From the NCBI GenBank assembly GCA_001604275.1, contig LVBD01000026.1, positions 1 to 33,797 of the forward strand: DNA of 33,797 nucleotides. Reading direction: 5' to 3'. The position numbers were made by a program, and so were the translations under genes. The first letter of the stretch is position 1, and the number at the start of each line of letters is the position of its first letter. The notes beneath the pieces are model-generated. The model was not told where the DNA came from, did no database searches, and saw only the letters and a list, made by a program, of their open reading frames with translations. The DNA is from Spirochaetales bacterium Spiro_02. GTDB lineage: Bacteria; Spirochaetota; Spirochaetia; Sphaerochaetales; Sphaerochaetaceae. Positions 4,730 to 27,464 of this stretch are shown piece by piece.

Positions 4730-4828
4730 AGGGTCATGGTAGGATTAGGGTCCTGGTAGGGTCATTGTGGGAGGTGTTGTAGGAGGTGTTGTAGGAGGTG
4801 TTGTAGGAGGTGTTGTAGGAGATGAGGG
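4730..4828 (+). repeat. Tandem repeat array rich in anti-Shine-Dalgarno complements
   Basis: Immediately after the ATPase stop codon come 11-base units AGGGTCATGGT (4730), AGGGTCCTGGT (4747) and AGGGTCATTGT (4758). Four 12-base units (A/G)GGAGGTGTTGT follow at 4769, 4781, 4793 and 4805, then a decayed copy AGGAGATGAGGG at 4817. Each perfect unit contains AGGAGGTG, the complement of the 16S rRNA 3' end (CACCTCCT), and then TTG-TAG, a start codon next to a stop. No gene start lies at a usable distance. It may be simple slippage, or it may bind 30S subunits in the mRNA. Confidence 0.75.
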
Positions 4829-4880
4829 TGGGGCGCTAGAACTCGAATCGTCACGACATCTATCGCGGGCCGGAAAAGCA

Positions 4881-13081: not shown

Positions 13082-14518
13082 ATGAAGAAATTTGCGATTG
13101 CGTTTTTGATACCGTTGCTTTTGGTAATGCTTGCATCGTGCGACGGTGACCTTCAGTCGAAGGTAGCCGGTCTCATGGACAAACTGGGCGGCAACGTCTG
13201 GATTGATTCCGGACTGGTCGAACCGAATACCGCAGGGGTGACTCAGGTTACGGCTACGGTCACCAATACGTCTACGATGGCTTCGAATCAGGCTATAGCA
13301 TCTCTCGGTTTTTCTAATTTGGACGGCTATTCATCTCCGATTGGAAATGACGATCCTGTACTGGCCCCTCAGTCGGCCGAAGATAAGAAAGCTCTGGAGG
13401 ATGCGCTGAGTACCGCCTTGAACTCGACGACCCAGACAGAGAAGCTCAAGGAAGAATTAAGCAAGCCGGTGACTGATAGCGCTACGGTTACAGCTGCCCA
13501 GAATTCAATGAAAGTCGCCGCAGCTGCGTTGACGGCTGCCGCCGGTATGACTGGTCTTGATTCCAATACTGCCACTGCATTAACCAATTTTGCCAGTGCC
13601 TTGAATGCAAACGCAATTGAATCTTCTCTCACACAAGGTGATGTCATGCTCGTGCAGATGATGACCAATCTCGTTGCATCTACTGCTACGGTTGCTTCCT
13701 CAGAAGATAGTATCGATCCTGCTAGCGACGATGTCAAAGCAGTCATCGATGACTCATTGTTCTTGATCAATGTCGCCCAGCAGGTTTCCGGTGTCGGGAG
13801 TCTTGATTTGACGCAGATGCTGAACCTCAGCGATCTGATGAGCAAGATCAACACTCGGTCGGTTGCTAGGTCAGGGGAAACGGAAAGTCCTGTGGAAGTG
13901 ATTCAGTTTGGGAATGATCAAGCAGAAGTCGTCGGCTATGTCAATCAAGTTTCCAAGATTGTCGCTACGTATGTTATGGCGACTTCCGATGGTACCATCG
14001 ATGAAGCAAAATACCAGCAGATGATCCGGAGCATGAGGGTCGTGAAAGCCGCATATGAAAATGCCGTGGCCATGGCATCGTTGTCTTCATCCCATTCTCC
14101 GTCGGAAAAAGAGCAGTTTGGGTTGACGGCGATGATGGATTATGCGGTAGCGACTGCGTTCATTGAACTGGATACGTTCGAAGATTCCGAAACATTTGAC
14201 GATTTGGTTGGAACTTTGGAACCTGGCGACACCGTTCGAGAAATCCTTCAATCTCTGTATCAGCATACTCCAAAGTTGCTGACGGGAACGTTGGTTCCAG
14301 GGGATACCCTGTACATAGGTGGGGAATATGCCTCGGCACTTGGGTCGCTTGACCAAGAAGCCTTATTGGGAAAGCTGAAGGATTATGTCAAAGGTTGTAA
14401 GACTGCAATTCTGGATGCATATGATGTGATCGAAGATATGGCGACAATTTCTGACAATACGATGATCACGGCGCAATTGACCAGCGATCAGCTGTCCAGT
14501 TGGTTCGATTCACTATAG
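13082..14518 (+). CDS. Lipoprotein of unknown function
   Basis: 478 residues starting at the ATG at 13082, five bases after AGGAGG; a GTG directly upstream (13079) is less well placed. Residues 1-19 are a lipoprotein signal with lipobox LASC, so Cys20 should be acylated. The next residue is Asp, an inner-membrane retention signal in E. coli, though spirochaetal sorting rules differ. The mature part is rich in Ala, Ser, Thr and Asp, looks largely helical, and has no cysteine motif or catalytic signature that I recognise. The 14-base gap to the following FadL-like barrel gene indicates co-transcription. The pair may work together at the outer membrane, for example in lipid or hydrophobic-solute uptake (inferred). 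Function unknown. Confidence 0.8.
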   Translation: MKKFAIAFLIPLLLVMLASCDGDLQSKVAGLMDKLGGNVWIDSGLVEPNTAGVTQVTATVTNTSTMASNQAIASLGFSNLDGYSSPIGNDDPVLAPQSAEDKKALEDALSTALNSTTQTEKLKEELSKPVTDSATVTAAQNSMKVAAAALTAAAGMTGLDSNTATALTNFASALNANAIESSLTQGDVMLVQMMTNLVASTATVASSEDSIDPASDDVKAVIDDSLFLINVAQQVSGVGSLDLTQMLNLSDLMSKINTRSVARSGETESPVEVIQFGNDQAEVVGYVNQVSKIVATYVMATSDGTIDEAKYQQMIRSMRVVKAAYENAVAMASLSSSHSPSEKEQFGLTAMMDYAVATAFIELDTFEDSETFDDLVGTLEPGDTVREILQSLYQHTPKLLTGTLVPGDTLYIGGEYASALGSLDQEALLGKLKDYVKGCKTAILDAYDVIEDMATISDNTMITAQLTSDQLSSWFDSL

Positions 14519-14532
14519 AATGGGGGCGAGAG

Positions 14533-15810
14533 ATGAATACGATACGGAAAGTTTCTTGTGTGTTGATGCTGGTTGCTGTAATTGCAGCTCCTCTTTTTGC
14601 GACGGAGTCTACGGATCCCGTAGGTCCTGGAGTTGGAAGTTCCTCGGTCGCATATGATTCTCTTGGTGTGGTTTTTTCGCCGATCAGCGTCCGATCCATG
14701 GGGATGGGCGGTGCCGGAATCGCCGTTGCCGGTACGTCGGATAGTTTCTTTCTCAATCCAGCTGCACTCGCGAATAGGAAATTCCAGCTGTCCTTGCCGT
14801 CCATTGGTGTGACGGTCTATAATCCGCAACAAATTCTCGAGCAAGGGATCATTGAGGATATCAAAGCGGATAAGGAGGAAGATGCAGCTCAGAAGTTCCT
14901 AGGAATTTTGAGTCGCAAGGGCTTCAACGAGGCGCTGACTTCAGATGTTGCTTTTTCTTTGTCTGCGGGAGGGTTCGGTCTTGGAATTCAAGCGCAGGAG
15001 AAGATTCACTCATATAGCCCGGATGGAAAGACAACTTCGACAAAGCTGATCGCCGAAGCCAATGCCGTCGCTACTTTGGGGTATGGGCTTCGTATCCACA
15101 TTATTGAAGATTCTTTGTCCATCGATCTTGGTGTCGCAGCGCGGTTCAACTATCGCGCCTACAACCAGGCAGTTACCGCAGATGATTTCATAGGGTTGGT
15201 CGCTGGAACGGAAGATACCGATGATTTGCTCAACGAGACTCCGTTGATGGCTGGCTGGGCTGTTCCCATCGATGCCGGTGTAAACGTCAATCTGCCGCTA
15301 GGGTTCACGATCTCCACCGTCGTACGTAATCTGATCGGCAAGTATCACATGACCGCCTATCCCGGCATCAGCAACTGGGCGAAGGAAGTCTTGGGCGTGA
15401 AGCTTACTTCTGATGGTTCTCAAGGGGCAGGAACTAATTCGGAGTTTGAATTCACGATCCCATGGTCGCTGGATGCCGGCTTCGGCTGGGCTCCGTCGTT
15501 CGGTTCCTTCGACAAGATACTCCGTCCTACGGTGGCCGTCGATGTCGTGGATCTGGTTGATCTCTTTGGAGAAGAGGTCACCACCGAACGGCTGTTGACT
15601 CATCTCAAGGCAGGTGCGGAAGTCAAGCTGTTCTCGATGCTGGATGTCCGAGCCGGTCTGAACCAAGGCTACATTACCATCGGTGCCGGCGTAGACCTCT
15701 TCGTAATCAGGTTGGAAGCGGCATATTATCGGCAGGAGTTCGGCGTGCAGTTGGACGACAAGCCGGTCGATGCGCTGACAATCAGGGCGAACATCGGTTT
15801 CGACCGCTGA
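14533..15810 (+). CDS. FadL/UPF0164-like outer-membrane beta-barrel protein
   Basis: 425 residues. The ATG at 14533 is preferred to an in-frame GTG at 14500, inside the upstream gene, because GGGGGCGAGAG precedes it and a signal peptide follows (about 1-24, cleaved after LFA). The mature N-terminus carries VRSMGMGGAGIAVAG then SFFLNPAALA, the hallmark of the FadL/PorV/TraF-like barrel superfamily, in which an N-terminal segment plugs the pore. Alternating hydrophobic strands continue to the end (LTIRANIGFDR). Relatives in treponemes are the UPF0164/FadL-like proteins thought to import hydrophobic nutrients such as fatty acids. With fadD just upstream, fatty-acid uptake is plausible, but transport has not been shown by anything in the sequence. 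Confidence 0.75.
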   Translation: MNTIRKVSCVLMLVAVIAAPLFATESTDPVGPGVGSSSVAYDSLGVVFSPISVRSMGMGGAGIAVAGTSDSFFLNPAALANRKFQLSLPSIGVTVYNPQQILEQGIIEDIKADKEEDAAQKFLGILSRKGFNEALTSDVAFSLSAGGFGLGIQAQEKIHSYSPDGKTTSTKLIAEANAVATLGYGLRIHIIEDSLSIDLGVAARFNYRAYNQAVTADDFIGLVAGTEDTDDLLNETPLMAGWAVPIDAGVNVNLPLGFTISTVVRNLIGKYHMTAYPGISNWAKEVLGVKLTSDGSQGAGTNSEFEFTIPWSLDAGFGWAPSFGSFDKILRPTVAVDVVDLVDLFGEEVTTERLLTHLKAGAEVKLFSMLDVRAGLNQGYITIGAGVDLFVIRLEAAYYRQEFGVQLDDKPVDALTIRANIGFDR

Positions 15811-15825: not shown

Positions 15826-15870
15826 GCAACCCGTTGAAGTGGCAAGGTCCACTAGACGGGTTGCTTTTTT
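15826..15870 (+). terminator. Rho-independent terminator of the lipoprotein/FadL-like operon
   Basis: GCAACCCGT (15826-15834) pairs with ACGGGTTGC (15856-15864), with an inner AGTGG/CCACT stem. Six T follow (15865-15870). Confidence 0.92.
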
Positions 15871-15967
15871 ATGTCCATTCCTAGGTCGGAAAGTGCTATG
15901 AGAGTCAGATTTTTGAGGACTTTGTAGATTAATTATTTGTATTGTATGTAATTGTATATGTTCATTG

Positions 15968-16044
15968 CTTTGTCATTGCTCGGACATTGCTTTGCCATTT
16001 GTGCATGCATGCTCGGTGATTGCTCGGACATTGCTTCGCCATTG
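15968..16044. repeat. Degenerate 11-bp tandem repeat array
   Basis: Seven consecutive 11-base units read on the plus strand: CTTTGTCATTG, CTCGGACATTG, CTTTGCCATTT, GTGCATGCATG, CTCGGTGATTG, CTCGGACATTG, CTTCGCCATTG, starting at 15968, 15979, 15990, 16001, 16012, 16023 and 16034. The consensus is about CTYNGNCATTG. A further unit, TATGTTCATTG, precedes at 15957. CATTG-g-CTTCGCCA at about 16163-16176 is an isolated related copy. The period is not a multiple of three, so this is not a coding repeat. It is one helical turn (10.5-11 bp) long, as expected for phased protein-binding sites, but function is unknown. Confidence 0.75.
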
Positions 16045-16094
16045 CTCAAAACTAGACATATGCTCAATTCTGTCTTAAAAACTTGCCTCCAAAC

Positions 16095-16124
16095 AGCCTT
16101 ACAGCCCGTACCAAGCCCGTACTC
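16095..16124. repeat. Second short 11-bp repeat
   Basis: AGCCCGTACCA (16103-16113) is directly followed by AGCCCGTACTC (16114-16124) and preceded by a partial copy AGCCTTAC (16095-16102). The unit length equals that of the array at 15968-16044 although the sequence differs. The whole stretch 15871-16193 otherwise contains no gene I would support; short frames on both strands lack ribosome binding sites and family likeness. Confidence 0.5.
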
Positions 16125-16193
16125 AGGCAGGAACAGAACTCCCATATGGATATTCTTTTTTTCATTGGCTTCGCCAGGTAGGCGCTTCAAGAT

Positions 16194-16276: not shown

Positions 16277-16346
16277 TACTCCATTGTGGGGGAAGGAATC
16301 ATGAATTGTACGGCTCCACATATATCTTCATGTGAGAGGTTCTGAA

Positions 16347-17978
16347 ATGGAACATTTCGGTATATGGGGCCTGATACCCCCTGTTCTTGCCATTACGCTG
16401 GCGTTCATTACCAAGGACGTCATGGTATCGCTGTTTCTCGGCATCTTGTCAGGAGCACTGATCGTCGCCGGAGGCAATCCGATCGTGGCCATCCTCAATC
16501 TGACCGACCTGCTGGCCGGATCATTGAACGATGGATGGAATATCAGGATATTCCTGTTCTGCGCATTGCTTGGAGGACTCGTCGGCATGCTCAGCCGCAC
16601 CGGATCCGCAGGGGCGTTCGGCCGTTGGGCCGCCAAGAAGATCAAGAGCCCGAAGTCTTCGATGCTGATGGCATGGTTCTGCGGCCTGCTGATATTCATC
16701 GACGACTACTTCAATTCGTTGGCGGTAGGGACGGTGATGCGGCCGATCACAGACAAGAACGGCGTACCCCGCGCCAAGTTGGCGTACATCCTCGACTCCA
16801 CGGCGGCCCCGGTGTGCATCCTGGTACCGATTTCCAGCTGGGTGATCACCGTCATGTCGATCGTCAAAGGCTCCGAAGGATTTTCTGTCCTGGGGATGAG
16901 TGAGTTCGAGTTCTTCATCCGTTCCGTACCATACAACATCTATGCGATCCTGACGCTGATCATGGTCCTGGTATTGATCCTGACCGGCAGGGACTTCGGA
17001 CCGATGGCCCGTTCTACGCAGTTGGCAAGGGAAGGAAGGCTGTACGATTCCTCATACGGCGACGCCCCCGGGGAAATTTCCATCGAAGGAAGCGAAAAGA
17101 CTGACAAAGCCCGTCCATTCGACATGCTGCTTCCGTTGATCGTGCTGATCGTGTCGGCGGTGATCCTGTTCCCTGCGACCACATGGTTGCTGGCGGTGGA
17201 CGGGGAGTCGATTTCGACCATCGGCCAGGCAATGGCCTCTATGACATTGGGCGAAGCGTTCAACAATACCGATGCGTCGATGGCCCTGTTCTATGCCATC
17301 ATCATCACGCTGGTGGTGACGTACATCTACTACGCTGTCCGCCGATTGTTCACGATCAAGGAAGCGAGCGATGCGATCATCGACGGCGTCAAGTCGATGG
17401 TTCCCGCACTGATGATCCTGACGATGGCATGGACGATCGGATCGATCATCAAGTCGTCCCCTGCGGATGGGGGGCTGGGGCTGGCCAGCTATCTGTCCGA
17501 AGTCGTCGTCGGAGGCAACTTTCCAATCCGTCTGATCCCGATGCTGGTGTTCGCGCTTTCGGCGCTGATCTCGTTTGCCACCGGAACCAGCTGGGGAACC
17601 TTCGCCATCATGATCCCGATCGTCATGCCGATCGTCGTCGGACTCGCCCAGGCGAACGGGATGGACAGTACGTCGCTGGTCAACGCCACGTTCATCTCGA
17701 TCAGCGCGGTGCTCGGCGGGTCGGTGTTCGGCGACCACGCATCCCCCATTTCCGATACCACGATTCTGTCTTCGACAGGCGCCGGTTGTCCCCACTTGGA
17801 ACATGTGGCGACCCAGATGCCATATGCGGTCACCTGTGCGGCCTGTTCGTTCATCGGCTTCCTGTTCGGAGGATTCTTCCTCAACGAACTGGTCGCTTGG
17901 ATCGCCGCGCTCTCCGCATTCGTGCTGGCGATGGCATTCGCTCCCAGGATGCGGATCTCCGCAGTAGGAAGGAAGTAA
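16347..17978 (+). CDS. Na+/H+ antiporter, NhaC family
   Basis: 543-residue inner-membrane protein with roughly a dozen hydrophobic segments. The C-terminal half carries the family hallmark FATGTSWGTFAIMIPIVMPI and then SVFGDHASPISDTTILSSTG, where the conserved Asp, His and Ser/Thr residues are expected to line the transport site; the N-terminal half has IFIDDYFNSLAVGTVMRPI, also typical. Likely exchanges cytoplasmic Na+ for external H+, although some relatives exchange organic acids (malate/lactate). The ATG at 16347 follows GAGAGG; an in-frame GTG at 16332 is less likely. The gene has its own promoter, and a GC-rich hairpin follows the stop. Confidence 0.88.
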   Translation: MEHFGIWGLIPPVLAITLAFITKDVMVSLFLGILSGALIVAGGNPIVAILNLTDLLAGSLNDGWNIRIFLFCALLGGLVGMLSRTGSAGAFGRWAAKKIKSPKSSMLMAWFCGLLIFIDDYFNSLAVGTVMRPITDKNGVPRAKLAYILDSTAAPVCILVPISSWVITVMSIVKGSEGFSVLGMSEFEFFIRSVPYNIYAILTLIMVLVLILTGRDFGPMARSTQLAREGRLYDSSYGDAPGEISIEGSEKTDKARPFDMLLPLIVLIVSAVILFPATTWLLAVDGESISTIGQAMASMTLGEAFNNTDASMALFYAIIITLVVTYIYYAVRRLFTIKEASDAIIDGVKSMVPALMILTMAWTIGSIIKSSPADGGLGLASYLSEVVVGGNFPIRLIPMLVFALSALISFATGTSWGTFAIMIPIVMPIVVGLAQANGMDSTSLVNATFISISAVLGGSVFGDHASPISDTTILSSTGAGCPHLEHVATQMPYAVTCAACSFIGFLFGGFFLNELVAWIAALSAFVLAMAFAPRMRISAVGRK

Positions 17979-27389: not shown

Positions 27390-27397
27390 GGGGCATC

Positions 27398-27431
27398 GCA
27401 GGGGCTTGCAGTACGTACTGCAAGTGCCCTG
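27398..27431. terminator. Palindromic hairpin between convergent efflux-channel and phospholipase D-like genes
   Basis: CTTGCAGTAC (27405-27414) is followed by its exact complement GTACTGCAAG (27415-27424). Outer GCAGGG/CCCTGC arms extend the stem with a small bulge. There is no T-run on either strand. Lying between two converging genes, it probably acts as a two-way transcript end or 3' stabiliser. TGCAAG(T/C)GCCCTGC occurs twice in a row just after the centre. Confidence 0.55.
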
Positions 27432-27464
27432 CAAGCGCCCTGCGCTCATCCTGCGCCCACCTCG

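Follow-up and report, generated by a model that had tools for sequence, protein, structure and literature searches.

The array of 11-bp repeats near the middle of the window, by which we mean the whole 33,797-nucleotide stretch of DNA analysed here, is probably a non-autonomous copy, one of many dispersed in the genome, of the element found at the ends of a RAYT/TnpA_REP-type Y1 (HUH) transposase gene. Arrays of this kind are repetitive, ordered and intergenic, bracket transposase genes in inverted orientation, and recur across genera with different units. Judged from sequence, the system is best read as REPtron- or TIRtron-like, its cognate repeats being putative helically phased direct-repeat arrays, with the window holding one solo copy.

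The window array (Table 1) belongs to a repeat family termed class B and consists of units in the order ATTGCTTTGTC ATTGCTCGGAC ATTGCTTTGCC ATTTGTGCATG CATGCTCGGTG ATTGCTCGGAC ATTGCTTCGCC ATTGCTCAAAA. Its self-identity is 0.55, 0.49 and 0.48 at lags of 11, 22 and 33, against about 0.25 at other lags; first-order simulations gave 0.30±0.04 at lag 11 and reached the observed value in 0 of 20,000 runs. TRF likewise called the array, with periods of 11 and 22. The adjacent 11-base units reported in a preliminary description of this DNA are thus borne out, there being eight of them, and the autocorrelation proposed there as a check yields the peak at lag 11 and lesser ones at 22 and 33. Equally sound was the claim that the region is gene-free, as the gap extends for ~520 bases from 15810 to ~16332-16347. 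A second 11-base repeat mentioned in the same description does exist as AGCCCGTAC, with just two copies, and it is separate from the dispersed element because homology to other places stops at ~16059. Near 16163, the ‘isolated copy’ of that description (CATTGGCTTCGCC) is partial, and no supporting evidence for it was found. The AT-rich block at the left end of the element lies in a window of 55% GC overall, and the right-block consensus across copies is close to TCAAAACT..ACATCCAACC.ATTCTGTC. The terminator-like hairpin upstream is missing from the terminator consensus scan owing to its long loop. The array itself folds worse than shuffled DNA (z +1.97), the class B core forms no hairpin (z +1.7), no Rfam family was matched, and a promoter and terminator scan inside the array returned nothing above chance.

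Table 1. Coordinates of the window array, its surroundings and related features; positions are those of the window unless a contig (C) of its genome (G000) or a locus (L) is named.
Feature	Position	Strand	Remarks
Class A-like element	4730..4830	+	right behind stop codon (TAA AGGGTCATGGTAGG...)
12-bp array TTGTAGGAGGTG x4.8	4765-4821	+	inside the class A-like element
Upstream gene	14500..15810	+	start 14500 or 14698; weak PorV/PorQ-family match
Terminator-like hairpin and T-run	15827..15870	+	CAACCCGTT...ACGGGTTGCTTTTTT, just past upstream gene
AT-rich block	15924..15957	.	18% GC; left end of dispersed element
Class B array, element core included	15963-16050	+	eight 11-bp units
Element core GCATGCATGCTCGGTGATTG	16003-16022	+	part of window array
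Right block TCAAAACTAGACATATGCTCAATTCTGTC	16046..16080	+	shared in part with other copies
AGCCCGTAC pair	16103-16111 and 16114-16122	+	spaced 11 bp; separate from dispersed element
Downstream gene	16332..17978	+	start 16332-16347; Na+/H+ antiporter family, Tet(35)/NhaC-like, match under curated cut-offs
Class A-like palindromic element	27390..27464	.	GGGGCATCGCAGGGGCTTGCAGTACGTACTGCAAG...; convergent genes either side
RAYT1	G000:C33:7192-7968		259 aa; flanked by inverted class B copies, one per side
Class A examples	L052-L091, e.g. L055:3000-3031, L071, L083
Contigs with an array near the end	G000: C25, C31, C43, C58, C60, C63, C70, C71

Class B is spread through the genome, which is that of a spirochaete, probably one of the Sphaerochaetaceae to judge by its gene content. 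BLAST with the window array located the family at 19 places, a 17-base class B pattern matched 98 times, and the 20-base core or its variants matched 36 times at ~24 places; the reversed control of either pattern returned 0 matches. All copies lie between called genes and share an architecture in which an AT-rich block leads into ordered units of varying number (for example ATTGCTTTGCC, ATTGCTGCATG, CCTGCTCGGTG, ATTGCTCGGAC), followed by a right block that is shared in part. The 40 nt preceding the arrays average 21% GC (n=16 copies), and a terminator-like hairpin precedes several other copies as well. Distances to neighbouring genes vary widely and the orientations of these neighbours are mixed. 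The search of the genome and its relatives for the 11-mer, which the preliminary description had recommended, combines ~24 places in the own genome with no array match in 60 relatives; in one of these, a 32-base match is confined to the right flank. Among 139 family genomes, three-unit CATTGCN(4-5) arrays, with a different spacer, occurred in only two others.

The second array family in this genome, class A, has the form GGGT(CATTGCAGGGT)n, and 18 of its 27 copies start 0-6 nt past a stop codon. It is often found in the gaps between convergent genes, and often leads into a GTAC-rich centre and inverted copies; GTAG is seen in some copies only. One class A copy (L079:3085-3120), with two convergent genes around it, holds the near-perfect palindrome CATTGCAGGGTCATTGCAATGACCCTGCAATG. 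As a separate observation on both families, ~8 of 50 arrays sit within ~400 bases of a contig end (~1 expected), and two contigs have an identical 60-base start in common, adjoining class B arrays. It is as if an insertion sequence targeted class A and class B elements.

The link to a transposase comes from contig 33, where a Y1_Tnp search located the one complete gene of this type in the genome, RAYT1, enclosed by two inverted class B copies. The protein scores 31.7 bits against Pfam Y1_Tnp, above the cut-off of 23, and 35.3 bits (E 9.5e-9) against NCBIfam REP_Tyr_transpos, below the curated cut-off of 80; since the latter model passed its own cut-off in just one of 14 control genomes, this score weakens the label rather than the resemblance. 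The Y1_Tnp domain contains an HUH motif and a single tyrosine of catalytic type, both of them kept in RAYT1, and H75, H77 and Y159 are invariant across eight relatives. In PDB searches, RAYT1 alone found weak transposase matches (E about 0.8) and the family profile several IS200-type transposases (E 6e-6 to 1.5e-3); the top match of the profile, designed filament proteins, was taken as spurious. The class B copy on the 5′ side of the gene contains an exact 38-mer that also occurs at three further places, including one on contig 33 itself at a distance of 3.8 kb.

RAYT2, the sole paralogue of RAYT1 (37% identity), lies immediately downstream of a class A element (L220:1282-1326), its other side being near a contig end. 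Because this array sits behind a stop codon, as is usual for class A, and one side alone is visible, this possible link is suggestive only and weak on its own. At a further locus (L205, G000:C60 ~13-16 kb), several TGTTTCACGTGAAACA parS-type sites lie by gyrase-A-like and ParA-like genes, and a Y1 transposase fragment is present as well.

The same arrangement recurs around related transposases. A profile built from eight relatives of RAYT1 retrieved 35 clade members outside this genome, which fall into three genera of its family (g8, g9 and g10). When each 5′ flank was scored against the reverse-complemented 3′ flank (shuffle maxima about 12-16), inverted flanks were detected in 20 of the 32 clade genes from other genera with both flanks readable; with RAYT1 included, 21 of 33 score 18-75. 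The paired flanks are mostly tandem arrays of 9 or 10 bp whose unit sequence changes from gene to gene, and units differ between transposases even inside one genome. Paired arrays are absent in 12 of the 33 clade genes, several of which have an array on the 5′ side. Flank scores did not exceed 12.5 for five RAYTs that belong to other subclasses within the family. Among 28 homologues, most of them taken from outside this family but inside the phylum, paired arrays were absent and four genes had single inverted repeats. In three distant spirochaete RAYT homologues (L334, L338, L347), single short GGG-rich inverted repeats flank the gene, resembling the TIRs of PMC3733652. In a tree, those g8 and g9 genes that bear arrays form one supported group of 28, while RAYT1 and RAYT2 fall on a separate branch, indicating that the arrangement is old or arose more than once.

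Two controls put these scores into perspective. In a 386-kb sample of G007, a relative, every gene of 180 aa or more (n=234) was scored blind to function, and a score of at least 18 was reached by five genes, which are the five clade transposases of the sample, and by none of the 229 others. Among 94 genes in the stretches of G000 fetched around arrays, one scores at least 18, namely RAYT1. Most arrays detected in the G007 sample belong to transposase-flank families, several of which occur at extra places, and there was no cross-match between its arrays and those of the G000 loci in either direction. As the G000 loci were picked for holding arrays, the gene control is the more informative of these two controls. 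One of the relatives’ arrays tested does fold (z -3.9). The AT-rich block is not general in the clade, being found just in class B and at one other locus. In an unrelated genome, a gammaproteobacterial MAG (L092, L096, L115, L153), CGTCATTGCGT arrays lead into the long palindrome CGAGGAGCCCGTAGGGCGACGAAGCAACC; this is a different dispersed palindromic family.

How do these elements compare to known repeat systems? REPs are hairpins of 20-50 nt with a GTAG foot (PMC2817692, PMC8266576). REPtrons (PMC2817692, PMC6006769, PMC8266576) share with the present system a Y1 HUH transposase with one gene per repeat family, inverted copies that bracket the gene, intergenic dispersal, and the presence in a single genome of two repeat families that go with two genes; for RAYT1 and class B, the bracketing inverted copies are indeed those that are also dispersed. 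The difference lies in the repeats, which here consist of direct repeats in tandem, mostly with units of 9-11 bp, rather than of hairpins: neither the window array nor the class B core shows the imperfect palindrome of a REP, the window array lacks a GTAG foot, and no consistent GTAG, nor the alternative GTGG, marks the foot of class B copies. Since the window array forms no hairpin, its element does not appear to rely on one as REPs do, and it is unlikely to be recognised in the way that REPs are. According to PMC3733652, TIRtrons (TIRYTs) are RAYT-like genes with long flanking inverted repeats unrelated to GTAG, some of them dispersed. The system described here agrees in its RAYT-like gene, its non-GTAG inverted flanks and its moderately abundant dispersed copies, and differs in that the inverted repeats are short direct-repeat arrays of variable number with gene-specific units, which the passages of PMC3733652 consulted here do not describe. 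Bracketing and dispersal thus match REPtrons, and TIRtrons even better because the inverted repeats of the latter are unrelated to GTAG.

More distant parallels exist as well. The MIRU elements of mycobacteria are dispersed intergenic tandem repeats at stop codons, a placement shared by class A, and their units are far longer than those of class A; we know of no MIRU-transposase pairing. The iterons of plasmid origins and HUH initiators are phased direct repeats near AT-rich DNA that are read by a nicking or initiator protein. Class B resembles them in its phased direct repeats by AT-rich DNA, but the arrays here are dispersed, inverted around a transposase and free of an initiator gene, the neighbours of the window array being the PorV-like and antiporter genes. 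A plasmid-type iteron or partition role, as considered in the preliminary description, is unsupported, there being no rep gene nearby and copies spread over many contigs. The words ‘tandem’ and ‘direct repeat’ are absent from the main text of the Y1 survey PMC6006769, and no description of tandem arrays as cognate repeats was found in the open-access library searched, although a subscription paper could already contain one.

By analogy with known Y1 HUH enzymes (PMC6006769, PMC8266576), the transposase would nick single-stranded DNA beside the array and rejoin it, and the element would thereby be copied or moved. Less firmly, the enzyme might dock on the units, which follow each other evenly at intervals of one helical turn, the AT-rich block might ease melting in class B, and the number of units might drift through slippage. 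Iterated protein binding at one-turn spacing, proposed beside curvature when the array was first described, stays plausible in this form; the likely binder would be the transposase, given that related transposases are bracketed by arrays with 9-11 bp units of unrelated sequence.

The mobile repeat that the earlier description had named as its alternative is the better reading of the site, with ~24 dispersed copies of which two bracket a Y1 transposase. A neutral minisatellite, made by replication slippage and of incidental period, has by comparison a slim chance of being correct. It can draw on the presence of 11-bp CATTGC-type arrays in unrelated bacteria and phages (66 genome and 22 viral stretches), and on a reversed control pattern found just as often among viral contigs (25 versus 22), which implies that slippage makes such arrays in many genomes; as these viral counts amount to background, a common origin of the window array with the phage and bacterial ones was rejected. 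Yet slippage alone accounts for neither the dispersal, in which ordered units and an AT-rich block recur across one genome, nor the bracketing, which involves two inverted copies around RAYT1 and is exclusive to transposases in the G007 sample. Absence from relatives and high copy number, named beforehand as signs of a neutral satellite, are both formally observed, but the tie to a transposase alters their meaning.

Host-function sites for a nucleoid or chromosome-organising protein, spread by selection and flanking the transposase by chance, are improbable to a similar degree. Helical phasing, intergenic placement and ~24 copies would suit such sites, and REP elements proper bind host proteins such as gyrase (PMC6006769). 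Their strand, however, bears no consistent relation to local G skew (positive in 10 of 21 class B and 15 of 24 class A copies), the 60 related genomes hold no matching array, and units that are wholly different between transposases, even in one genome, would be odd for a single host protein. Slightly less credible again is a transcription-linked element acting on mRNA ends past terminators or stop codons. The stop-codon placement of class A and the terminator-like hairpins preceding several class B copies speak in its favour; against it stand the failure of the window array to fold (z +2.0) or match Rfam and the widely varying distances and mixed orientations of class B neighbours, and the placement is equally explained by insertion into safe gaps.

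We therefore return to the transposase-associated element as the preferred reading. Y1 HUH transposases are known readers of single-stranded hairpins, and a clade in which phased direct repeats with gene-specific units often stand on both sides of the gene suggests another mode of recognition. Whether this amounts to a distinct HUH class, in which each transposase would read its own phased direct-repeat array instead of a hairpin, in an iteron-type manner that co-evolves gene by gene and leaves dispersed solo arrays, is evenly balanced. The transposase-linked arrays suggest a selfish or domesticated element of a little-known kind, and the clade offers many natural protein-DNA pairs for testing. 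Some of the minisatellites that lie between genes in these genomes would then be transposase-linked rather than neutral.
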